This document shows, one piece after another, positions 1 through 11,524 of a stretch of 35,016 nt of DNA. A model generated the notes under the pieces. It saw only the letters and a list, made by a program, of their open reading frames with translations, made no database searches and had not been told where the DNA came from. Positions within the stretch are counted from its first letter, which is position 1; the number at the start of each line of letters is the position of its first letter. Both the position numbers and the translations under genes were made by a program. The DNA is from a virus, in the IMG/VR virus record IMGVR_UViG_3300025133_000352, positions 1-35,016 of that record, one strand, 5' to 3'.

Positions 1-1428
1 GATCTTTACATTTCTCATCGGCCACTCGCCCTCTTCTAGGGCATGTACCTTAAAAAGCTGCTTTGTCGATCGTGTATAGTCGTAATCAGAGAATTGCTCT
101 GTGGCCTGACTGAGAATCCAGCCAGAAGATGCCGCAGAGTAAGCCTGTTGATTAACTCCACCTTCATAATCTGCACTATTGGTTCTTATTGGAACAATTG
201 CGCCGTACATGACATTGCTGGAAGCCATGGAAGATACTGTCGAACCCGACTCAGGCTGAGCGAGAAGACGCTCATTTGTTTGACCCAAGAAATATGGCTC
301 AACTGTTGACTCTAGGCTGCTATTGGTCTTTGTAGGATCGGTGTTAAATACTTTGCGAATAAACTTTTCTGAACCTTTGTCAAAGTTGAATTCAACTTTC
401 TTATATACGCCGTCGGCTCCGCCAGTGAAGGTCGACGAAATGGTGACGTTGGTGCAATTTTCTGTTATCGTGGTGTTACCATCAACGCCTGCGATGGCCT
501 GAGTGATTGTGAACGAGCCGCCAGAAACTGCGGAGCAGGCAATTTTACCGTTATGTCCAGCCGCGTTCAATATAGCGTCCCTTATAGAGCCTGCAATATC
601 ATCGGGGGCTGCGCCGTTTTCATCTCTATCAAACTGGTTGGCGGCGAAATTCTGATCGTTCTTTGCGATATATCGTATCAATGTTCCATCTGTAGAAACA
701 AGATCGATGTATTCATCGAGGCCGACGGCTCCTGCGACAGTTATTGTCGCAGTTGCTGCGACGGCGGTGGCGGTGGTGGCTGTGGTTGCAATTTCCATTA
801 CAAAGTTGTTACTCGAATTGGTCTTCAAAAATGCGCCAGCAGAGGAAGTACCATGTGCAAACGCACCAGCGCGAGAACCGTCATAACCAATATAAGAACC
901 AGAGAGTTTGAAAGCTGTGTCGCTGCCGGGTCGAGCATAGAATATTGCTGCCACTGATCCTGTGTTATATCCGTGCACGAATGTGTTAGTTGCATCTGCA
1001 GTGCTGCCACTTGGGGCCACAATAAGAGCGTATGCTCCGCCGTGGTTTGCCCCTCTGCCAACAGACCCCATTGTCCAACCAGCGAGACCAGCGGTGTTTG
1101 CAGAAGAATTAGCATCGCCAAGGAGGCGCATAAACGTCAAAGGTCCACCATTACGAAGGAAAGCCTTTGCTGCATAGGCGGCATATGTTGGAGAGGTATA
1201 ATTGCCGTCACGCCAGACATCTCCGCTGCCATCACCGGGAATTGGTTCTCCAAACAATTGGACAAACTCTTGAAAACTCTGAACTTCGACAGGACGAAGG
1301 GCAGGACCGCGTTCTGAGCGGCCAATAACTAATGGTCCAGAGGCCGCAGGCTCTGCTGGAACCCTAGATCTATCTATTTCTTGTAGAAAGACTCCGGGTG
1401 ATACGAATTTAAACTTGCTGGCAGACAT
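1..1428 (-). CDS. Tail sheath protein, second paralogue (3' end beyond window)
   Basis: This gene encodes the N-terminal 476 residues of a gp18-type contractile sheath subunit and is cut off by the window edge. The start is MSASKFKFVSPGVFLQEIDR, preceded by AAGGAG ten bases upstream. It is clearly homologous to the complete sheath gene just upstream: both contain GPL(V/I)IGRSERGP, FGEPIPG, SGDVWRDGNYTSPTYAAYAA and, later, an F-(K/R)-(V/L)-HA-(L/V)-EEG-x-WPMRN segment, here at the very end of the visible part. The middle region (about residues 110-330) diverges and is rich in Ala, Thr and Gly. Only 48 bases separate it from the upstream sheath gene and there is no terminator between them, so the two are probably co-transcribed. 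A complete, functional C-terminal domain cannot be confirmed here. Confidence 0.9.
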   Translation of the reverse strand, partial: MSASKFKFVSPGVFLQEIDRSRVPAEPAASGPLVIGRSERGPALRPVEVQSFQEFVQLFGEPIPGDGSGDVWRDGNYTSPTYAAYAAKAFLRNGGPLTFMRLLGDANSSANTAGLAGWTMGSVGRGANHGGAYALIVAPSGSTADATNTFVHGYNTGSVAAIFYARPGSDTAFKLSGSYIGYDGSRAGAFAHGTSSAGAFLKTNSSNNFVMEIATTATTATAVAATATITVAGAVGLDEYIDLVSTDGTLIRYIAKNDQNFAANQFDRDENGAAPDDIAGSIRDAILNAAGHNGKIACSAVSGGSFTITQAIAGVDGNTTITENCTNVTISSTFTGGADGVYKKVEFNFDKGSEKFIRKVFNTDPTKTNSSLESTVEPYFLGQTNERLLAQPESGSTVSSMASSNVMYGAIVPIRTNSADYEGGVNQQAYSAASSGWILSQATEQFSDYDYTRSTKQLFKVHALEEGEWPMRNVKI

Positions 1429-1476
1429 TAACTATTTTCTCCTTGTCTTTTCAAAAACTTACTTGCCTCTTTATAA

Positions 1477-4400
1477 TTAGTCATCAAAAGAAGCACCAGA
1501 TCTTGTAATAACAAAATCAATTGCGATAAATTCTACGGCCCTTGCTGGCTTTAAGAAAATCTTTGCGTACATAATATTTCTATCAATCATATCAGGTGTT
1601 GTGGTTGAATCATCAAGCACAACTCTAAAATCTGTAAGGCCGCCTGCTTGCCTGATAGAACCAAGAAGCGGATTAACCTGTGACAAGAACCTATTCCACG
1701 TTGCTTCTACGTTGTTGTCAAACAACAGTCTTGAAGAAATGAAAGATACTCGGCGCTTAATGAATAACATCAGGCGACGAACGTTAATTCGGTCCAAGGC
1801 AGAGGCTGCTTTCTGAAGAGTCTTTTGTCCGAAGACTGTAATTCCCTCATTCGCAAAGTCTGCGATTGGATTAATATCCAGAGCGTACAACTCGTCCCTA
1901 TCTGATCGGTCAAAACGATGAGTAAGGCCAGTAACACTAATGCCAGCTGCGCCGTCGGAAAGATTACCTCTATTATAACCTGCGGGAGAGAACCATGGAC
2001 CTGCTACTTTGTCGTTGTGGGCAAGAACGCCCGCGACTGCCACAGAAGGCGGCATCCACACTTTTCTACCGGAAATTGGCACTCCGATCCATGGTGCATA
2101 TGCAGCGCCATAGCTAGAATTAAGTGCTCTAGCTTTGTGACGACCTGTGATAACCGTGACTGCCTTTTTTCTAGTCATATAATCATCTGTCGACCAAGTC
2201 TTTGGCATATAAAGATTTGGAATGTCTACAATAGCGAGGGCGTCGGCTCTATTTTCACAAGTCGTGATCATATGATCTGTGATTGAAGCGTTTGTGATGC
2301 CCGGGGCCATAAGAGTATTGTACTCTGCAAACTCTGGGTCTGCTACTGTATCAATTGCTCTCTTTACTGTCTGATAAACTGAGTTTGATTCGTTCGTATC
2401 AGTTGAGATTCCCTTAAATTGTCCAGACTGGTCCTGACGGAGGGGGTCGCTTTCTTTAATATCCCAACCATCAAACCCACCAAACATTGGCATTGTGAAT
2501 CCCTTAACTCTTGGGATGTTACGAGAAACAGACCCCGTGATCCAAAAACTTCCACTTGCTCTGGAGTAAGACTGGTGCCCGCCAGTGCCTGCAGCTATCC
2601 CAGCCAATGATCCAATCGTCTGGCCGCCAGAACCTGAGTGCCAAACAAGATCCTGAGAGGCGTGATTACCTCCAGCAGTTGGAGGGCAAATGTCGTCCAT
2701 CGTGAAAAAGAACGATGCCGAAACATGCAAGTTAGAATCTGAAAGAGACCCGGGCAGTTTCCTGAGGTAGTCGACATAAGACTGGTTGTGCTCCTTGGAT
2801 CCCACAGAGACAGTATTGTCAACCCCAAAGTAAGCCTTTGTAGGCTGTAACCCGCCGGCGGAAGAGGAGACTCTGCATCTAAGGACAGGTTGACGAAGAC
2901 ATATACCAGTTAATGCATCTGGTGCAAGGCCGTCAGTGTTTCCGCCGAAAGCAATTCTCTTATTTGCTGCACCTTGGGTCATATTGGAGCCGCCGTCGCC
3001 ATTGTTTAATGTAACATTTCCCAAATCCGAACCCGGAGACATATAGGCAGCTGTGTCGGCGACGTTGTTATGAAACGGACCGTTTCTTCCGGGAGGACCA
3101 TGAGGGTTACCAGAGTTTATACCCACTGTATAAACGGCGGTATTTGTAGCGCTAGAAAGAAGATGGATCGGCATAAGCGAGGGTGGACCTTCAAACCCAA
3201 AGGGTAGTGCATCTTCATTCGCAGAACCATTTGATACTGCCGGGGAAACCTCGACTCTTATATAGTTAGACATATTTTCAAATTCGCCAACGAAAACCAA
3301 TCTTCTGTTCGTAGAGTCCCACTGAGCATAGGCATCTCCGATTCTTCTCGCTATATAATTCATTGAATCTGGGTTTAAGTCTAGGTTGTCGAACCTCTCT
3401 AGGACCTCTGGTTTGTTGTCGTTGTCTTTCGCGTTACGAACGACCAAACTGAACCTACCAAATGGATCAACATTGCTATTCTTAGGTGGTTTAACATTTT
3501 CGATTGAAATCTTAAGGTTCCGCATTGGCCATGTGCCTTCTTCAACTGCGTGAAGCCTAAACAATTTCTGCACAGAAGCGCTACTGGCCGGGTCAAAGCG
3601 ATCCCAGCTTCCGATATTTTGACTAAATACCCAACCGGAGCGCGCAGCGGAAGCTTCCTGTTGATTAATACCAAACGATGTTCCACCGGTGGCGGCAGAT
3701 TGTGCGAGGCCTGCCACAAATCCCATCATCTGAGCAGATGAGTTAACCGACGAGCCGGTGGGGAACAGGTTGAGTGTTTCATATGTTTCGCCCAAGAAGT
3801 ATTTTTCTGTTGCTGAGTGTATATTGGAGTTTGTTTTTGTTGGGTCTGTGTTGAAAACTTTACGGATAAACTTTTCTGAATTTCTGTCAAAATTGAACTC
3901 TATAAGGTTTTCAGCGCTGACGCCTGATGAGATGGCCATCAAAAAGTTACCAGAAGTATCTGACTTTACAATTCCGGCGTGACCATCAAGAGTAAGACTG
4001 GCCCCTTTTAAGTTTGTGGTTCCACGCAGACCAAATGTCAACCAATCGACAGAATTTGGATTAGCATAGAAAACAGCTGCCAGAGTACCTGTGGCTTCGG
4101 TGTCCGCGGCTGGGTTGCCCAATGGTGCAACGAAAAGACCGTAAGCGCCTTGGGGGTCTGTACTGTCGTTGGTTGCTGCTCCGCCGTTGTTGGAGATAGT
4201 TCCAAAATTCCAGCCGGCTTGTGCGTCATCGGTGGTAGAGGCTTGTGCATCTTCTGTACCCATAAGCCTAAGGAAGGTTACAGGCCCGCCATTCTTTAAA
4301 AAGGCTTTTGCAGCATAGGCAGCATAGGTCGGGGATGTATAATTTCCATCTCTCCATACATCTCCACTTGTTCCGCCGGGGATGGGCTCACCAAAGACTT

Positions 4401-4569
4401 CTGTAAACTCCTGAAAAGACCTTACAGAAATAGGTCTCATTCCCGGTCCTCGTTCTGACCGCCCTATAATAAGAGGGCCTACGTCGGCTTGTTCCGCAGG
4501 AAGCCTTGACTTGTCTATTTCTTCGAGGAAAACACCGGGGGAAATGAATTTAAACTTGCTAGCAGACAT
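1477..4569 (-). CDS. Tail sheath protein, gp18-like, 1030 aa
   Basis: This is the contractile tail sheath subunit, which polymerises around the tail tube and contracts to drive infection. The C-terminal third carries conserved gp18-family blocks: WFSPAGYNRG, RDELYALDINPIADF, DRINVRRLMLFIKRR, then RVVLDDSTTTPDMIDRNIMY and a final ARAVEFIAIDF. These match T4 gp18 in order. The protein is 1030 aa against 659 aa in T4. The extra length lies mainly in the middle (roughly residues 120-720), as inserted, probably surface-exposed domains. The start MSASKFKF has GGAG upstream. A terminator and an ACTATTTA motif lie upstream, so the gene probably begins its own late transcript, which continues into the second sheath gene. 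Confidence 0.95.
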   Translation of the reverse strand: MSASKFKFISPGVFLEEIDKSRLPAEQADVGPLIIGRSERGPGMRPISVRSFQEFTEVFGEPIPGGTSGDVWRDGNYTSPTYAAYAAKAFLKNGGPVTFLRLMGTEDAQASTTDDAQAGWNFGTISNNGGAATNDSTDPQGAYGLFVAPLGNPAADTEATGTLAAVFYANPNSVDWLTFGLRGTTNLKGASLTLDGHAGIVKSDTSGNFLMAISSGVSAENLIEFNFDRNSEKFIRKVFNTDPTKTNSNIHSATEKYFLGETYETLNLFPTGSSVNSSAQMMGFVAGLAQSAATGGTSFGINQQEASAARSGWVFSQNIGSWDRFDPASSASVQKLFRLHAVEEGTWPMRNLKISIENVKPPKNSNVDPFGRFSLVVRNAKDNDNKPEVLERFDNLDLNPDSMNYIARRIGDAYAQWDSTNRRLVFVGEFENMSNYIRVEVSPAVSNGSANEDALPFGFEGPPSLMPIHLLSSATNTAVYTVGINSGNPHGPPGRNGPFHNNVADTAAYMSPGSDLGNVTLNNGDGGSNMTQGAANKRIAFGGNTDGLAPDALTGICLRQPVLRCRVSSSAGGLQPTKAYFGVDNTVSVGSKEHNQSYVDYLRKLPGSLSDSNLHVSASFFFTMDDICPPTAGGNHASQDLVWHSGSGGQTIGSLAGIAAGTGGHQSYSRASGSFWITGSVSRNIPRVKGFTMPMFGGFDGWDIKESDPLRQDQSGQFKGISTDTNESNSVYQTVKRAIDTVADPEFAEYNTLMAPGITNASITDHMITTCENRADALAIVDIPNLYMPKTWSTDDYMTRKKAVTVITGRHKARALNSSYGAAYAPWIGVPISGRKVWMPPSVAVAGVLAHNDKVAGPWFSPAGYNRGNLSDGAAGISVTGLTHRFDRSDRDELYALDINPIADFANEGITVFGQKTLQKAASALDRINVRRLMLFIKRRVSFISSRLLFDNNVEATWNRFLSQVNPLLGSIRQAGGLTDFRVVLDDSTTTPDMIDRNIMYAKIFLKPARAVEFIAIDFVITRSGASFDD

Positions 4570-4658
4570 ATGATCACTTTCTCCATTCTTGAACTATACC
4601 ACAAACGCTCACTAATTTTCAGGTAAAAAACGGAGCATATAATTATACTTTTCTAAGA

Positions 4659-4666
4659 TAAATAGT
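4659..4666 (-). promoter_or_regulatory. ACTATTTA motif upstream of the tail sheath gene (candidate late promoter)
   Basis: The octamer ACTATTTA on the minus strand lies 89 bases before the sheath start and just past the strong terminator of the preceding fibre gene. A TATAAT hexamer follows 13 bases after the octamer. It is one of six intergenic copies in this window. The role as a promoter is inferred from its recurrence and placement. Confidence 0.5.
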
Positions 4667-4724
4667 TATTCAAAAGATGAAATGACACCCTATTATCAAA
4701 ATAAGGCACTAGACACAAAAGAAA

Positions 4725-4748
4725 GGACCCACTCCGAAGAGTGGGCCC
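4725..4748 (-). terminator. Intrinsic terminator after the 900-aa fibre gene
   Basis: On the minus strand a 10-bp stem (GGGCCCACTC with GAGTGGGTCC, including one G-U pair) closes a TTCG tetraloop. It is followed directly by TTTCTTTT. It begins 27 bases past the stop codon of the 900-aa fibre gene. The plus strand lacks a T tract, so it acts in the direction of the genes. Confidence 0.9.
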
Positions 4749-4774
4749 CAAAAATCACACACAAAGTAATAATA

Positions 4775-7477
4775 TTACTTGGCGATGAAGTGGAAGGTCA
4801 ACACATCGTTTGCTTCCATCTCTGAATAGAGGTTGGTACTAGCTGTGAAGTAGGCATCACCAGAATTGAGTATGCCAACAGCACCGTCGTCGTTTGTTGC
4901 GTCCGAAGAATCAAGCAACTGACCGTTGTGGAAAACCATAACGCCTGCTGCACTGATTGGATCCTCAGCACTAGAGCCAGAGACCTGAATAACGCTGAAA
5001 TCGCCGGATGGGACGGAAGCATGAAGTTCGGCCTTTGTCACTCGCTGAACGATAGGCTTAATAGCAATTGTGACAGTCGTACCACTTGCGGAAGTACTAA
5101 CACCGTCGCCGCCCGCTATAGTAAGGGTTTCACTGTCCAAGTCAACGTCAATGGTACCACTGTCAGAAGTGATGTCCATATCCTGTCCAGTCAACTGAGC
5201 GTCTACATACGCTTTGATCGACTGCTGAGTTGCCAATGCGGTAGCACTATCGGTACCCATACCATCTTCATCAAGAATGGTGGTAACTCTAGCGCCAGTA
5301 CCAACTTGCAGACCAGAATCACTAAGATTCATGCGAGCGGTACCGCCCGTTTCAAATGACTGGGTATCTGTACCAAAAGCAATCTTATTATTAACATCGC
5401 CAGTGTGAACAAGATCACCTGCCATAGAGAGGGTGCCAGCAACTGCAGCGTCACCAGTAACCGAAAGGTTATCGTTGACTGTAGTTTCTGAGGTTGAGTG
5501 GCCGATCGAAACCGCTACGCCGCTTGTCGCAGTAGCAAGATTCAAACCACCTGTGCCATCAATAGCAACTGCTCCGCCGTCAGCGTCCATGTCGATTGTT
5601 GCACCGCCAATAGTCAATGCTGCGTCGGAATCCACTGTAACTGCTGCAGCGCCGTCGACGACGAATGCGCCGGCAGATGCCAAAGTAGCTCCAGTGCCAC
5701 CATCGTGAGTGATTGTCACGTCCTTACCAGCGCCGAGACCGAGTACGGCCGAGTCGCTCAGTAGGAATACGTCATCGCCAGCAATGATGTCCTTAGCAAC
5801 ACTCAAACCGCCGTCGGTCTGCAAAGCGCCGTCGGTTGTTGAGGTAGCTTCAGTAGTGTCATCGGTGATGAGCCTACCACTAGCTGTAATGGCAGCAGCA
5901 GTAAGTGCAGCGACTCGAAGAGGCGCATAACCACTGATGGTAACGTTACCAGAAGTGGAAGCATCTTCTTCGTCACAAGCAATGAAAGCGAAAGTGTCAG
6001 CAGATTCATCCCAAAGCATAGCCTTGTTAGCCTTATCTGCAGCAGATCCGTTACCACGTGAAATGACAAGACCCTGATCTAATGAAGGAGATGCAGTCTG
6101 GCCCTTGTTCAGCTTGATAAGCGGGTCTTCAACCAACATGTTTGAAGCAGAAACAGTGACGGTTGCACCGTTTACTGTAAGATCACCAGTAACAACAAGG
6201 TTATCGTTGACTGTGGTCTCTGAAGTTGAGTGACCAATTGAAATTGCCACTCCGCTAGTTGCAGTACCAAGGTTTACACCGCCGGTACCATCGATAGCAA
6301 CGGCTCCACCGTCAGCGTCCATGTCAATCGATGCGCCACCAACAACCAGTGCAGCGTCCGAATCTACTGTAACTGCGCCTGCGCCATCAAGAATGAAAGC
6401 ACCTGCCGAAGCTAGTGTAGCTCCAGTTCCACCGTCATGCGTAATTGTTACATCCTTACCAGCACCAAGACCAAGAACAGCCGAGTCACTTAACAAGAAT
6501 ACATCATCACCAGCAATAATGTCTTTGACAACACTCAAGCCACCGTCGGTCTGTAGAGAGCCGTCGGTTGTTGAAGTAGCTTCTGTGGCATCATCAACAA
6601 GTAATCTACCTGTAATGTTCAAGTTGTCAGCAACGGTAACTTCAGAAGTACTGTGACCAATAGTAACGGCAATGCCGCTAGTTTCGGTTGCGATCTTCAG
6701 TGCACCTTCTGCGTTTGTAATATAGGAATTCGTACCATCATGATAAAGCTGCAAGTCGGAACCAGTACCGAGCTTGAGGTTCTTACTGTCAGCCATTGTA
6801 ATGTGGTGGCTAGTGAAGTCCAGAGCACTAGTGCTAAGGATGACACCGTTAGAGCCACCCGAATCGATGAGCTGTAGGTTGCCACCACTCGTTGCGGCGA
6901 AGCGGTTGTTGCCGCCTGAGTCCTTAATACGACCATTGGTACCAAGCTTGATGCTATCCTCAAAAATGGCGAGGTTATCACCTTCGTCAAGTTTAAGCAT
7001 CTCGTTACCATTTGAGTCCTTGAATACCATGTCTTCGCTAGCGGTACCACACTCGATTGAAGCAACGCCGCCAGATCCCCACTTGAAAACTAACCCGGGG
7101 CTAGAGCCCTTGTAGAATTTCGCTGCTGGGGCTGAAAAATCAGAGTGAAAGTTGAAACAAACCCCACTGGTTTGGCCAGCGCTAAACTTAAGACCTGCAC
7201 TACCGCTGAGGTCCAATCGACCTGTACCGGGGGCACTGATGTTTGAATCTGCACTGTTGAACTGTAGTTCTCTTGTACTGTTGAGTAGAAGACCTTCGTC
7301 TGCTACATGTGTGAGCGAAACGTCTTGGTCTGCACCAAGATAAATCACACCTCCGTCAGACAGATAGAGATCTGCCCATTCAGCTGAAGTGCTACCAAGA
7401 GCGGCACCATTAGCTGAAGCTGGAACTAGATCTGTTGCGATCTCCAGCTGCTTATTATTAATCCTTGTCCTTGCCAT
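4775..7477 (-). CDS. Repetitive tail fibre / virion structural protein, 900 aa
   Basis: This is a long beta-rich protein of the kind found in fibres and appendages of aquatic T4-like phages. The N-terminus (MARTRINNKQLEI) is followed by low-complexity Asp/Gly/Thr/Ser-rich beta repeats. A module of about 135 residues with IAGDDVFLLSDSAVLGLGAG, HDGGTGATLASAGAF, DMDADGGAVAIDGTGG and IGHSTSETTVNDNL occurs twice, around residues 293-428 and 537-672. An LTHV-x-D-x-GLLL element near residue 55 recurs in the 645-aa protein at 16034-17971. The C-terminal end contains VMVFHNGQLL and a final LTFHFIAK, resembling the last domain of the 382-aa neck-region protein. Position directly before the sheath genes suggests a virion-attached fibre. 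No enzymatic motif is visible. The start has AGGAGA upstream. Confidence 0.8.
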   Translation of the reverse strand: MARTRINNKQLEIATDLVPASANGAALGSTSAEWADLYLSDGGVIYLGADQDVSLTHVADEGLLLNSTRELQFNSADSNISAPGTGRLDLSGSAGLKFSAGQTSGVCFNFHSDFSAPAAKFYKGSSPGLVFKWGSGGVASIECGTASEDMVFKDSNGNEMLKLDEGDNLAIFEDSIKLGTNGRIKDSGGNNRFAATSGGNLQLIDSGGSNGVILSTSALDFTSHHITMADSKNLKLGTGSDLQLYHDGTNSYITNAEGALKIATETSGIAVTIGHSTSEVTVADNLNITGRLLVDDATEATSTTDGSLQTDGGLSVVKDIIAGDDVFLLSDSAVLGLGAGKDVTITHDGGTGATLASAGAFILDGAGAVTVDSDAALVVGGASIDMDADGGAVAIDGTGGVNLGTATSGVAISIGHSTSETTVNDNLVVTGDLTVNGATVTVSASNMLVEDPLIKLNKGQTASPSLDQGLVISRGNGSAADKANKAMLWDESADTFAFIACDEEDASTSGNVTISGYAPLRVAALTAAAITASGRLITDDTTEATSTTDGALQTDGGLSVAKDIIAGDDVFLLSDSAVLGLGAGKDVTITHDGGTGATLASAGAFVVDGAAAVTVDSDAALTIGGATIDMDADGGAVAIDGTGGLNLATATSGVAVSIGHSTSETTVNDNLSVTGDAAVAGTLSMAGDLVHTGDVNNKIAFGTDTQSFETGGTARMNLSDSGLQVGTGARVTTILDEDGMGTDSATALATQQSIKAYVDAQLTGQDMDITSDSGTIDVDLDSETLTIAGGDGVSTSASGTTVTIAIKPIVQRVTKAELHASVPSGDFSVIQVSGSSAEDPISAAGVMVFHNGQLLDSSDATNDDGAVGILNSGDAYFTASTNLYSEMEANDVLTFHFIAK
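5461..6598 (-). repeat. Two direct copies of a ~405-bp fibre module, offset 732 bp
   Basis: Bases 5461-5866 and 6193-6598 are similar in sequence and lie exactly 732 bases (244 codons) apart, so the duplication is in frame. They encode the two near-identical beta modules of the 900-aa fibre. Differences are mostly at third codon positions, indicating selection on the protein since duplication. Confidence 0.85.
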
Positions 7478-7599
7478 TAGTTTTTTTCTCCTATTGAATA
7501 TAATGGTTTATGGCAAACTATAACATACTCATACGATACTTAACTGGGCAAACGAAGTGGAATTAAACTGAAACGGATATTAACGCAAAAAGGTCTTTT

Positions 7600-7833
7600 T
7601 TAGCGCCGATCAAAGAGGAGTTTTTTTAAATTTCTTATATGATTGTCGAATTTACAAAAATCAGAATTAACAAACTCTAAAGATTTTGATTCACAATCGT
7701 TGTCAAGATCTTCAAATTCAAAGCGGAATCTTCCATTTTGGTCTCTTGTGCACAATAAGAGCTTTTTACCTAAAAGCTGTAAATATGCAGCGATCCCTAT
7801 ATCGGAAGTAACAAATTTGTTTGCATCATTCAT
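7600..7833 (-). CDS. Small conserved phage protein, DUF5659-like, 77 aa
   Basis: The sequence reads KFVTSDIGIAAYLQLLGKKL, then a charged stretch RDQNGRFRFEFEDLDND, then FCKFDNHIRNLKKLLFDRR. This is the pattern of the DUF5659 family of small phage proteins: a TSD-(I/L)-x-x-AAYL opening, a lysine-rich turn, an FxFED strand pair and a C-terminal helix. Its biochemical role is unknown to me. The ribosome-binding site is weak. It lies between a structured non-coding region and the 900-aa fibre gene. Family assignment is from memory of the pattern. Confidence 0.7.
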   Translation of the reverse strand: MNDANKFVTSDIGIAAYLQLLGKKLLLCTRDQNGRFRFEFEDLDNDCESKSLEFVNSDFCKFDNHIRNLKKLLFDRR

Positions 7834-7892
7834 TTAAATGTACCCATCATTCTTCTTGGCTGTTATTATTATTTTCAGTGTTTGATAGTAAG

Positions 7893-8027
7893 TAGTGTGA
7901 GGGTATCGTAAACCCGAAAGAAAACAGGCGTTGAGGCCTGAAACAAACCCGTCGTCAGGAAGTAGACAGGACTCTGTAACGAAAAGTGTACTCACCTGCT
8001 ACCACATGGTAACAAGTGAACACACTA
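7893..8027 (-). ncRNA. Structured intergenic RNA region of unknown function
   Basis: This 206-base gap has no usable reading frame but is full of inverted repeats. A 7-bp outer stem (7893-7899 with 8021-8027) encloses several elements. The first is a hairpin at 7990-8017 whose minus-strand RNA has a continuous 12-bp stem around an AUGU loop, with two G-U pairs that would be C-A mismatches on the plus strand. The others are a CAGGC/GCCTG hairpin at 7925-7940 followed by a T-rich tract, and a GGGT/ACCC hairpin at 7901-7915. A CCTGA/TCAGG pairing would compete with the CAGGC hairpin. The G-U pairs favour a minus-strand RNA. I match it to no known RNA family. Confidence 0.5.
7911..7940 (-). terminator. 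Weak intrinsic terminator candidate inside the structured region
   Basis: On the minus strand CAGGC pairs with GCCTG around a six-base loop, followed by TTTTCTTTC. The stem is only 5 bp, so it would be a weak terminator, or a conditional one given the competing upstream pairing. Confidence 0.35.
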
Positions 8028-8039
8028 GAAGGCTGGAGA

Positions 8040-8432
8040 TTAGTTGTTGGTTTCGTCGTCGAAATCTCTAATGACAAATTTGGCTGAGCCGCCTTCCTCA
8101 TCAGGTAAATTAAGATAACAATCAACATCTTCAGAAATGTTAGTTTCTGATCGGAGACGCTGAACCTCGTTCTGGATGGCTGTCTGGGCTTCTCCGAGAT
8201 TTCGAAGAATTCCTGTCTTGCGACGTTCAAACTCTGCGGTTAACTGGCCAAGTTGGGTTTCGGCCATCGAAAGATTGCCTCGATTAAAAAGTACTGTCTG
8301 TACGTTTTCCCATGGAACCTCTACAGTTCCTTCCGTAATCTTCTCCACAGTAGTTTCTGTGGTTTCTGTGGTTTCTGTGGTTTCTGTGGTTTCTGTCACA
8401 GTATCTTCTGTGTTGCTATTTTTTTCAGACAT
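8040..8432 (-). CDS. Hypothetical protein with (ETT)n linker, 130 aa
   Basis: The start is taken at MSEKNSNTED because AAAGGAGG sits just upstream. An in-frame ATG 48 bases earlier lacks such a site. Residues 1-30 are an acidic, Thr-rich linker with repeated ETT units. The rest is a folded-looking region with a predicted helix of about 45 residues (roughly AETQLGQLTAEFERRKTG onward) and a short acidic tail ending DDETNN. No family is recognised. It follows the gp15-like gene and precedes the structured RNA, within the tail gene block. A sigma-70-like promoter candidate lies about 50 bases upstream of the start. Confidence 0.75.
   Translation of the reverse strand: MSEKNSNTEDTVTETTETTETTETTETTVEKITEGTVEVPWENVQTVLFNRGNLSMAETQLGQLTAEFERRKTGILRNLGEAQTAIQNEVQRLRSETNISEDVDCYLNLPDEEGGSAKFVIRDFDDETNN
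8354..8396 (-). repeat. 9-bp in-frame tandem repeat coding for ETT
   Basis: The plus-strand unit tttctgtgg occurs four times without error from 8354 to 8389, with a partial fifth copy to 8396. Each unit adds Glu-Thr-Thr to the linker of the 130-aa protein, so changes in copy number keep the frame. Confidence 0.9.
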
Positions 8433-8481
8433 AATAACCTCCTTTATATTTGTTATGCATGCATGCCTATGAAGCAACACT

Positions 8482-8534: not shown

Positions 8535-9683
8535 TTATACGGTTCCGACTTTTCTCAGATAATCAACAGTTACCACATCTAAGGCAAAGGGGGCCTCGAC
8601 GAAGGTGATCGACACACTGTCACCAGCCTCAACATAGTCGTTGCCGGCACCGGGGTATTGAAGCTGACCATTTAAGAACACTTTTAAGGTCCCGGGCTCA
8701 TAATAGTACTGCGTTGTAAAAGTCTCTATAGAGCCATCAGCATCTTCAATGACGGAGCCGTTGATCACTCTCTGATTTGCAAACTGACTTCCGAAGTCAA
8801 TGCTCGATTCGCTCAAGCTTCCCGCCCTAGAAATTAGATTGCGATTTACAACGTCAACCAGATCATCGATGTTTGTTGCAAAAACTGTTGTTTCTCTGTT
8901 CATCTTGAATTCAACAGCGTTTTGCCTTCTGACAATTTTTGGAGTGTCTTGATTTTTATCCGCGCCGATGACGTACCCTAAAACTTTAATCTCAACAGCT
9001 GTTTCATACTTTCTCTCATCCTCTCCTAAATCTGCAGCGTTGTCGGTTTGCGAGAAGTCCTCTTGCATAAACGCTTCGAAGTTATGGCCGTCTTTGTGTA
9101 CGTTAAAGTAGTTTATGCCACCCGGGAAAGTCAAAAATGGCGTAAGCATCTCGTTGATCTGTTGCTGGTATTCTGAACGAAGCACAACTCGATATGTCAT
9201 TTCCAAATACGAGGGCATCGGGATTGATATTGTCTCATATACAACTTTGTTGTTGTTTTTATTAAAACCAAGAGTTCCGCGGGCTGACATTGTGTCGACG
9301 TGGGCAAAGTTGCTGGACTTTTCTTGGTTTATCTCTCTCGCTATTGTAACAGAAGCGCCCTTGTAATCATCCACAGGAGGTATATGCAACCTAGCTGTGC
9401 CTTTTCTGGTAAGACTTTTCACGACGCTAGTTCTCTGCACTGACATAATTGGCAAAATGAGTGCGCCAGAAGAATCTCTAAGCTTCTTATCGTGTTTTAT
9501 CTGGTACGCTCTCTCTGATGAGACCCAAACCATTGGTACTTTTTTCCAGCCAGTGTTTGTTGTTGCAAAAACGTTTAATTGCTCAAGCCAATCAAAAACA
9601 GCGCCGTCGACGGTCTCAAGAGTCGATGGCATGAATTTTATATCCTTAAGAGGGGGGGGATCTGTATAATATCTACTGGGCAT
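8535..9683 (-). CDS. Tail-completion / sheath-stabiliser protein, gp15-like, 382 aa
   Basis: Third gene of a block in the T4 order 13-14-15. The central segment SIPMPSYLEMTYRVVLRSEY followed by QQQINEMLTPF resembles the T4 gp15 pattern of a beta strand with a D-x-x-Q-I-x-E-x-x-L-P-(Y/F)-F-type helix. That protein caps the tail tube and sheath and joins the tail to the head. At 382 aa it is longer than T4 gp15 (272 aa). The extra C-terminal ~100 residues contain YYYEPGTLKVFLNGQLQYP and end in VTVDYLRKVG, a beta module related to the end of the 900-aa fibre. It overlaps the upstream gene by 11 bases, suggesting coupled translation. The family call rests on synteny plus a short motif, so a generic virion protein remains possible. 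Confidence 0.6.
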   Translation of the reverse strand: MPSRYYTDPPPLKDIKFMPSTLETVDGAVFDWLEQLNVFATTNTGWKKVPMVWVSSERAYQIKHDKKLRDSSGALILPIMSVQRTSVVKSLTRKGTARLHIPPVDDYKGASVTIAREINQEKSSNFAHVDTMSARGTLGFNKNNNKVVYETISIPMPSYLEMTYRVVLRSEYQQQINEMLTPFLTFPGGINYFNVHKDGHNFEAFMQEDFSQTDNAADLGEDERKYETAVEIKVLGYVIGADKNQDTPKIVRRQNAVEFKMNRETTVFATNIDDLVDVVNRNLISRAGSLSESSIDFGSQFANQRVINGSVIEDADGSIETFTTQYYYEPGTLKVFLNGQLQYPGAGNDYVEAGDSVSITFVEAPFALDVVTVDYLRKVGTV

Positions 9684-10161
9684 CGAATAATCCCTCGCGG
9701 GCCTTTATGCATTTGGCCGAAATTTCAAATAAGTGATCAGTCTGACCGAAGAGCTGCCTTGGTTGATTCAATGAGACAATCTCAAAATAAATATCACCAT
9801 ACCTCACGAAGTCTCCCTCTCTAACAAAAAGGTTCTGATCTTCTGTTAATCTTCTTTTATGGAAATGAATCGTGATGGAAGTCAGACGATCTATCCCATT
9901 GAAGCCGGTTGTTGTCTGTTGTCCTTCCCAGTCTACGAGCACCGCCACTTTTACAGGAGGCAAGAATGTTTTGTTTATTGCTTCACCGTATAAATCATGA
10001 AAACTTGTATGCTCTAAACTTATCGGATAATACAAAACCTGTTGTCCAACAACTCTTTCGATGATTTCATCGTTTACTTGCTTAACATAGTCGCGCTCTT
10101 TCTTACCAAAAAAAAGTGGTGGTGGGGGCGCATCTGGTTGTGACCATTTATCATCTGCCAT
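9673..10161 (-). CDS. Neck protein, gp14-like, 162 aa
   Basis: Probable head-completion/neck protein at the portal-tail interface. Visible gp14-type features, in order, are GQQVLYYPISLEHTSFHDLY followed by GEAINKTF, a strand VAVLVDWEGQQ, and EGDFVRYGDIYFEIVSLNQP. The last corresponds to the T4 gp14 element in which a GD turn precedes an F-E-I strand. T4 gp14 is 256 aa, so this version is shorter at the C-terminus. The N-terminus is Pro-rich (DAPPPPLFF). It lies between the gp13-like and gp15-like genes, 16 bases after the former, and overlaps the latter by 11 bases. Confidence 0.65.
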   Translation of the reverse strand: MADDKWSQPDAPPPPLFFGKKERDYVKQVNDEIIERVVGQQVLYYPISLEHTSFHDLYGEAINKTFLPPVKVAVLVDWEGQQTTTGFNGIDRLTSITIHFHKRRLTEDQNLFVREGDFVRYGDIYFEIVSLNQPRQLFGQTDHLFEISAKCIKAREGLFDAQ

Positions 10162-10177
10162 TCCAGTTCAGCCTCCT

Positions 10178-11524
10178 TTATCCTGCAAATATCCCAGTAG
10201 GTATATTCTTTTGTATGTCGTTGGTACTATCCATGATAGCTGCGTCTCTTTCGACGAGCTTAGCGTACGTTAATTCTGCAAGTGTAGACTTAAGCTCTTC
10301 TCTGAGTTTGTCTTGTTCTGTTTGCGCTTGGGATATCAAGTCTGAACCATTGAGGGTCACCGATTCGCCGGGAATCGGCACTGTCCCAAACTTGCTTCGC
10401 ACTTGGCCAAGCATCTCTTTAGACAAGGCTAGAGCAAATCGACGGATCCACTGCTTACCAATACTGTTTATATTCTTATATGGTATATTACCAAGAGGCA
10501 ATGTGTTCATATTATTGACACCGTCGGTGCCGTCATCGACATCTGACTCGGTCGACCATGCATCTTCTGGTATTGAGAATTTTATCCACATCCTATTCTG
10601 AAGAAACGTTTGAGTCGGAGAAGGGAATATTCTTATGTTGTTGTTGTGAATCTCATATGAGAAATGAGACATCCTTGTATATATCGCATCCTCATATGCG
10701 AGGGCTTGGGCTTTGTTTTGCCATGCCGGAACCAACTGAAAGGTTGAATCATCTGAGAACTGGCCATAGTTGCCTAAATTACCCACCACGTTAAGGCCGC
10801 CATAATATCCGTAAAACCTCCACATCGCATGGGGAGTCTTATAAAATACCTGCTTTACTACAATTCTTTTCGGGGCTGTTCCGTCGATAATTCTAGTGTA
10901 TCTTACATCCCCGTCTCCCGCTGTTATTGCTGCAAGCGCGCTTGATGAGACGATTGTCTGCAAATTATAGTCTTGGACAGAGGCTGTGGGAATAAATGAC
11001 GCTGAGTATATATTGTTCGAGCCGTTTGTGCCTGCTTGAGTTGCGACACCTTCTGTGACTCTCTTTGCATACGAATATTCAAACTTTGTGTATTTAAGTG
11101 CTGCGCCGGGGGCGGCCATGGAGGCATCGACACCGGTCGGATCTCCAAAAGATGATGATAATTCGCCGGATTGAAGGTTGCCTTTGTGATCAAAAGTTCC
11201 TGTTGTATTACCTAGAGCATCCGAAAGCATGTTTGTTGCTTGATGCACATTTACAATGTACGAATATTCTAGAGTTGCTTCTTCATATGCAGAGTATACA
11301 TTTCCGGGTGTTAGCTCAATATCAAGGACATCGCCGCCGAGCTTCTTGTAAACATAAGCAACTTGCTCAACAGCGCCGGACAAAAAGTTCTCCGAATATA
11401 GAGGAGAAGTTTCATCGGAATATATACGATATGGAACAGTACCATCTACAGAAGTTGTCGTTCCCGTGACTGGTAAAACAACTACACTACCTGATTGCGC
11501 CGGAACTAGATCTGGATGAGACAT
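10178..11524 (-). CDS. Neck protein, gp13-like, 448 aa
   Basis: Probable neck/head-completion protein, the first of the 13-14-15 block. The most diagnostic part is the C-terminal region: WIRRFALALSKEMLGQVRSK, followed by FGTVPIPGESVTLNG and a helix EQDKLREELKSTLAEL. This matches the T4-type gp13 pattern in which an ALxLxKE helix precedes a VPIPG loop and an LNG turn. The N-terminal two thirds contain several beta strands and a Tyr-rich stretch (MWRFYGYYGG). T4 gp13 is 309 aa, so there are insertions here. An ACTATTTA motif ends 24 bases before the start codon, and the ribosome-binding site GAGGG could pair with an upstream CCCTC. Confidence 0.7.
   Translation of the reverse strand: MSHPDLVPAQSGSVVVLPVTGTTTSVDGTVPYRIYSDETSPLYSENFLSGAVEQVAYVYKKLGGDVLDIELTPGNVYSAYEEATLEYSYIVNVHQATNMLSDALGNTTGTFDHKGNLQSGELSSSFGDPTGVDASMAAPGAALKYTKFEYSYAKRVTEGVATQAGTNGSNNIYSASFIPTASVQDYNLQTIVSSSALAAITAGDGDVRYTRIIDGTAPKRIVVKQVFYKTPHAMWRFYGYYGGLNVVGNLGNYGQFSDDSTFQLVPAWQNKAQALAYEDAIYTRMSHFSYEIHNNNIRIFPSPTQTFLQNRMWIKFSIPEDAWSTESDVDDGTDGVNNMNTLPLGNIPYKNINSIGKQWIRRFALALSKEMLGQVRSKFGTVPIPGESVTLNGSDLISQAQTEQDKLREELKSTLAELTYAKLVERDAAIMDSTNDIQKNIPTGIFAG

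Follow-up and report, generated by a model that had tools for sequence, protein, structure and literature searches.

Sheath genes and their context in the window

The window analysed here, a virus sequence of 35,016 bases, carries on its minus strand, in this order, genes for the terminase, portal, protease, capsid, neck proteins, a fibre-like protein of 900 aa, sheath 1 and sheath 2, and its source is a T4-like marine myophage. The terminase call was checked by search, and the portal, protease and capsid were named from their translations and gene order. A neck-region protein (8535-9683, minus strand) served as the syntenic marker for a survey of relatives, in which protein searches gave about 240 related loci, denoted here by L-numbers. 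The repetitive fibre-like protein (4775-7477, minus strand; an ORF) lies between the neck and sheath genes and outside the duplication. In single-sheath relatives the sheath adjoins the neck gene and no 900-aa fibre-like gene is present at that place.

Sheath 1 is a complete gene of 1030 aa (4569-1477, minus strand) that matches the PHROG tail sheath family (1.4e-63) and PF17482 (2.6e-9). PF17482 scores above its cut-off in both copies, with copy 2 scored on the sister contig L018, and the subtilisin-like domain PF04984 is matched slightly under its cut-off. A profile of sheath 1 relatives matches the solved chain of T4 gp18 (E 2e-62), the alignment covering the C-terminal 300 residues and an N-terminal motif. 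The AlphaFold2 model of sheath 1 has a pLDDT of 77 and a pTM of 0.82; its core is confident except for residues 1-23, and the low-confidence stretches (179-197, 473-553 and 652-683) fall mostly within the variable middle. These matches identify sheath 1 as a T4-type tail sheath.

The first 476 aa of sheath 2 are encoded at 1428-1 on the minus strand, in a frame that is open at the contig end and was recognized as an ORF with BLASTP similarity to sheath 1 in two segments, one of 223 aa (55% identity, 2e-65) and one of 136 aa (51%, 5e-35). The initial annotation had described two tandem, diverged sheath genes 48 nt apart, and both the ORFs and this similarity, which is far beyond chance, agree with that description. 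A search with copy 2 found a single close relative, the 153.8-kb contig IMGVR_UViG_3300025133_000030 (L018), which begins at copy 2 residue 45 and shows 1106 residues before a normal stop (L018 3-3323), with an intact Phage_sheath_1C domain at the C-terminus (PF17482, 1e-9). Full-length copy 2 is known from this sister virus and residues 1-476 from the window virus; the question raised in the annotation about the sequence beyond the window edge is thus answered through L018, where the C-terminal domain is present and the frame stays open to its stop. The tail tube gene lies directly after copy 2 (L018 3395-3967) and is followed by more tail genes, and the sheath-then-tube order is the same in single-sheath relatives. 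Copy 2 of L025, from a different metagenome, is identical to that of L018 across the last 650 residues. The window and L018 are about 90-94% identical in nucleotides outside one variable block. Within copy 2, an insert separates two alignable stretches of 94% and 90% identity. As neither a second sheath nor a terminase match was found in L018, this contig seems to cover the part of a similar genome that the window lacks; the window contig and L018 both break within copy 2, and L018 starts there.

The motif ACTATTTA, a putative late-promoter element, is located 97 nt upstream of sheath 1 (4659-4666, minus strand). Of 161 regions upstream of sheath genes in relatives, 139 contain it in forward orientation and none in reverse, against 1.85 expected from shuffles; across 2.6 Mb of loci whose orientation was set by the tail genes, there are 597 forward and 18 reverse occurrences. 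All nine sites in the window (4666, 11556, 12023, 12578, 15666, 18071, 23413, 29131 and 34027) are on the coding (minus) strand. A search of the coding strand for the T4-consensus late promoter TATAAATA gave no hit. From this distribution, ACTATTTA is probably the late promoter element of the clade. It also precedes many tube and neck-region genes in relatives. As the 48-nt stretch between the sheath genes (1429-1476, minus strand) contains no ACTATTTA, the pair is probably co-transcribed; an AAGGAG ribosome-binding site (about 1439-1444) lies ahead of sheath 2, and both copies have ribosome-binding sites. The second sheath has its own ACTATTTA in L053, L126 and L143, and in L126 the sequence around the motif is visibly similar at both genes, suggesting that the duplication took in the promoter as well as the gene.

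Divergence of the copies and variable outer blocks

Sheath 1 is 51% identical to copy 2 of L018 over 849 aa, with the similarity reaching the last residue. Between the copies, residues 1-104 are 79% identical in amino acids (67% in nucleotides) and the last 110 residues 85%, whereas parts of the middle range from 24% to 54%. Calling the first ~95 residues almost identical, as the initial annotation did, is therefore too strong, although their similarity is high. The shared EEG-x-WPMRN block that it noted reads EEGTWPMRN in the first sheath and EEGEWPMRN in the second, and the middle is indeed different, being diverged and, in sheath 2, enlarged by an extra stretch.

Synonymous differences between the copies are saturated or nearly so along the whole gene (pS 0.68-0.88), including the conserved ends (0.83 and 0.68), and dN is about 0.4 overall, rising from 0.14-0.19 at the two ends to 0.4-0.6 between them. 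Because the ends are similar despite synonymous saturation, it is selection on the protein that keeps them alike. Recent gene conversion is ruled out as the origin of their similarity by this same saturation. When set against 1821 pairs of relatives of equal middle identity, the window pair falls in the top 0.1% for the N-terminal end (80% identity versus a control mean of 63%) and in the top 1.7% for the C-terminal end (85% versus 73%). This excess is limited to the window pair and is absent in the three other duplicated lineages tested. Between the sister viruses, copy 2 has a dN/dS of 0.07-0.29 outside the insert, and the tree branch lengths of the two copies are alike (0.49 and 0.36), so neither copy is running free. 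Taken together, these substitution patterns indicate that both copies have long coexisted under purifying selection.

The insert in paralogue 2, placed by alignment at residues of about 206-345 (394-813, minus strand), adds about 120 residues and faces just ~11 residues of sheath 1, where the counterpart is a hairpin between predicted strands 209-214 and 221-226. Between the window and L018, the insert has an amino acid identity of 50%, in contrast to 96-97% in its flanks. It is modelled poorly in the AlphaFold2 prediction for L018 copy 2, the core of which is confident, and it gave no match to Pfam or phage records. Judging from sheath architecture, the insert would face outward. Two single sheaths are unusually long, those of L234 (3848-7936; 1362 aa) and L240 (3090-7301; 1403 aa), suggesting further added domains.

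Within pairs of strains, sheath blocks at about residues 120-300 and 440-590 differ strongly despite flanks that are 95-100% identical, examples being L036 (3106-6438) versus L041/L042 (5854-9204), L167 (3888-6962) versus L171 (7001-10117), and L096 versus L046. Two of the strain pairs carry two sheaths. Between L126 and L128 (flanks 97.7%), copy 1 is 99.4% identical and copy 2 is strongly changed in two blocks, residues 121-200 and 441-545; between L167 and L171, the changes are in copy 1, with 98.6% identity across the visible portion of copy 2. Replaced blocks in corresponding regions also distinguish single-sheath strain pairs (flanks of 100% for L036 and L041), so that turnover of the outer domains is a general trait of these sheaths. 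The pattern indicates that outer sheath domains are rapidly replaced in strains with near-identical flanking DNA. Since single-sheath relatives vary alike, surface variability alone does not argue that the second copy has a function of its own, and the idea that hypervariability is peculiar to duplicated sheaths is rejected. Compared with the sister paralogue as their possible source, the replaced blocks gave no recent match. There is some chance, although a rather small one, that the clade repeatedly evolves mosaic sheaths with one constant subunit and one that has a fast-changing outward domain; the constant/variable split comes from two strain pairs and may be due to chance. If true, a mosaic sheath would turn the contractile tail into a variable outer coat distinct from the fibres.

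Sheath duplication among related loci

A single sheath is present in 160 of the 166 loci that span neck, sheath and tube (119 clusters at 90% sheath identity). Besides the window lineage, two sheaths occur in at least four other lineages, namely L053 (1076 and 1094 aa, both complete, the identical 8.4-kb sequence being present also as L055), L126 and L128 (complete, on contigs of 102 and 203 kb), L143 (the second sheath cut), and L165, L167, L169 and L171, in which the order is sheath-tube-sheath (L167 3888-10692). A more distant pair is encoded by a 484-kb uncultured phage (LR756508.1, L104), with two sheaths (2503-4977 and 5992-8466) of equal length, 824 aa, and 29% identity. In about ten relatives, a second tail-tube-like gene lies directly after the tube gene; in L010 the two (9391-9999 and 10034-10876) are 30% identical, and such tandem genes are found also in L141, L131, L100, L088, L073, L091, L239, L035, L138 and L242.

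Every marine sheath pair forms its own branch with 100% support in both a FastTree tree (163 rows) and an IQ-TREE mixture-model tree (48 rows), nested among single-sheath relatives. A single ancient duplication for all two-sheath lineages is unsupported, as each pair forms its own clade. In the simplest reading of the trees, the sheath was apparently duplicated separately at least five times in the clade, including the window lineage, although repeated old conversion of whole genes may instead account for the pairs. The branching also indicates one duplication common to L165, L167 and L171 and another common to L126 and L128, with both copies retained since. As related viruses have duplicated the sheath several times independently, a two-sheath tail seems to be useful and no accident.

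Proposed two-subunit tail and comparison with known systems

The explanation that we favour, and regard as fairly probable, is a tandem sheath duplication particular to this lineage, yielding two complete subunits that are probably expressed from one late transcript and assemble together in one tail. The sheath gene would have been duplicated in tandem inside the virus's own lineage, with each copy retaining the N- and C-terminal core through which subunits of known sheaths lock into one another and contact the tube, and with the copies differing in their outward domains, to which copy 2 would add its variable insert. A single late transcript, initiated ahead of copy 1, would serve both genes, each translated from its own ribosome-binding site, and both subunits would enter one tail through the shared core, giving a surface on which two subunit types are mixed or layered. 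That both genes encode genuine, functional sheath subunits, as first proposed, is supported by their full length, their conserved ends, synonymous saturation combined with low dN, and the recurrence of such pairs elsewhere. Conservation of the interlocking ends together with divergence of the outside favours co-assembly with different surfaces; co-expression and co-assembly in one virion would follow from this arrangement, and the benefit could involve, for example, host-surface contact or altered sheath stability.

The copies might instead be specialized by layer, one forming the bulk sheath and the other only a ring next to the baseplate or neck. Such an arrangement has a precedent in the PVC and AFP particles, which contain multiple sheath proteins (PMC8894135) and of which Pvc3 and Pvc4 contribute six chains each, or one hexamer, to PDB 6j0n. 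We consider it possible but distinctly less probable for the present pair, as both copies have complete N- and C-terminal arms and a near-same core, with neither trimmed nor adapted to an end, and as one protein serves both tail ends in single-sheath relatives. It is unlikely that the genes are alternative coats, with one copy used per virion and the other held as a reserve or as a recombination donor for variable outer domains. The fast turnover of outer blocks within near-identical DNA, in copy 2 of L126/L128 and copy 1 of L167/L171, would fit such a system, but comparison with the sister paralogue gave no recent match for the replaced blocks, the same turnover takes place in single-sheath viruses that have no second copy, and neither copy is silent or broken, ribosome-binding sites being present on both. 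An assembly artefact joining two related viruses in one contig is suggested by the position of the junction, 1.4 kb away from the contig end, and by its presence in the window contig alone in an exact-match scan of viral contigs; it is nonetheless very improbable, since copy 2 groups with copy 1 and no other relative at 100% support and four other lineages have two sheath genes, one of them on the 203-kb contig of L128. Least credible is a decaying or neutral duplicate, which is rejected in spite of the incompleteness of copy 2 in the window because copy 2 is cut by the contig end only, is intact and full length in L018 without a premature stop, and has a dN/dS well below 1 with saturated synonymous sites.

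Contractile sheaths are usually regarded as homopolymers, with T4 as the single-sheath model. The proteins reported here resemble T4 gp18 in sequence and in their place ahead of the tail tube gene, and differ from it in being longer and duplicated. A survey has recorded that some phage genomes encode two sheath copies and that sheath proteins have a conserved N- and C-terminal core at the tube and assembly interfaces with additional domains outside (PMC9230969). A close likeness in gene content is to Pseudomonas phage PaBG and its relatives, which are jumbo phages of a single group. In PaBG, two 58-kDa sheath proteins with 38% identity, gp76 and gp213, arose by duplication and are both found in the virion (PMC7412058). 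The window phage and PaBG are contractile phages with two duplication-derived sheath genes. They differ in that the genes here are tandem, encode proteins of about 1000 aa, belong to a T4-like marine clade and reflect several separate duplications, whereas the gene numbers 76 and 213 imply that the PaBG sheath genes are not neighbours. The two-sheath phages that we found described in the literature are jumbo phages. With PVC and AFP, the present pair would share the use of several sheath proteins in one particle (PMC8894135; chains of 6j0n and 6rao), but those sheaths have 350-450 aa, are partly confined to a single ring and have only the core in common with the proteins described here. Two-component sheaths are thus already known, and to these the present case adds genes in tandem and duplications that recurred within a single marine clade. 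With apparently at least five sheath duplications and the retention of complete copies, this clade provides material for asking whether heteromeric sheaths are mixed or layered, and why a phage diversifies the exterior of its tail.
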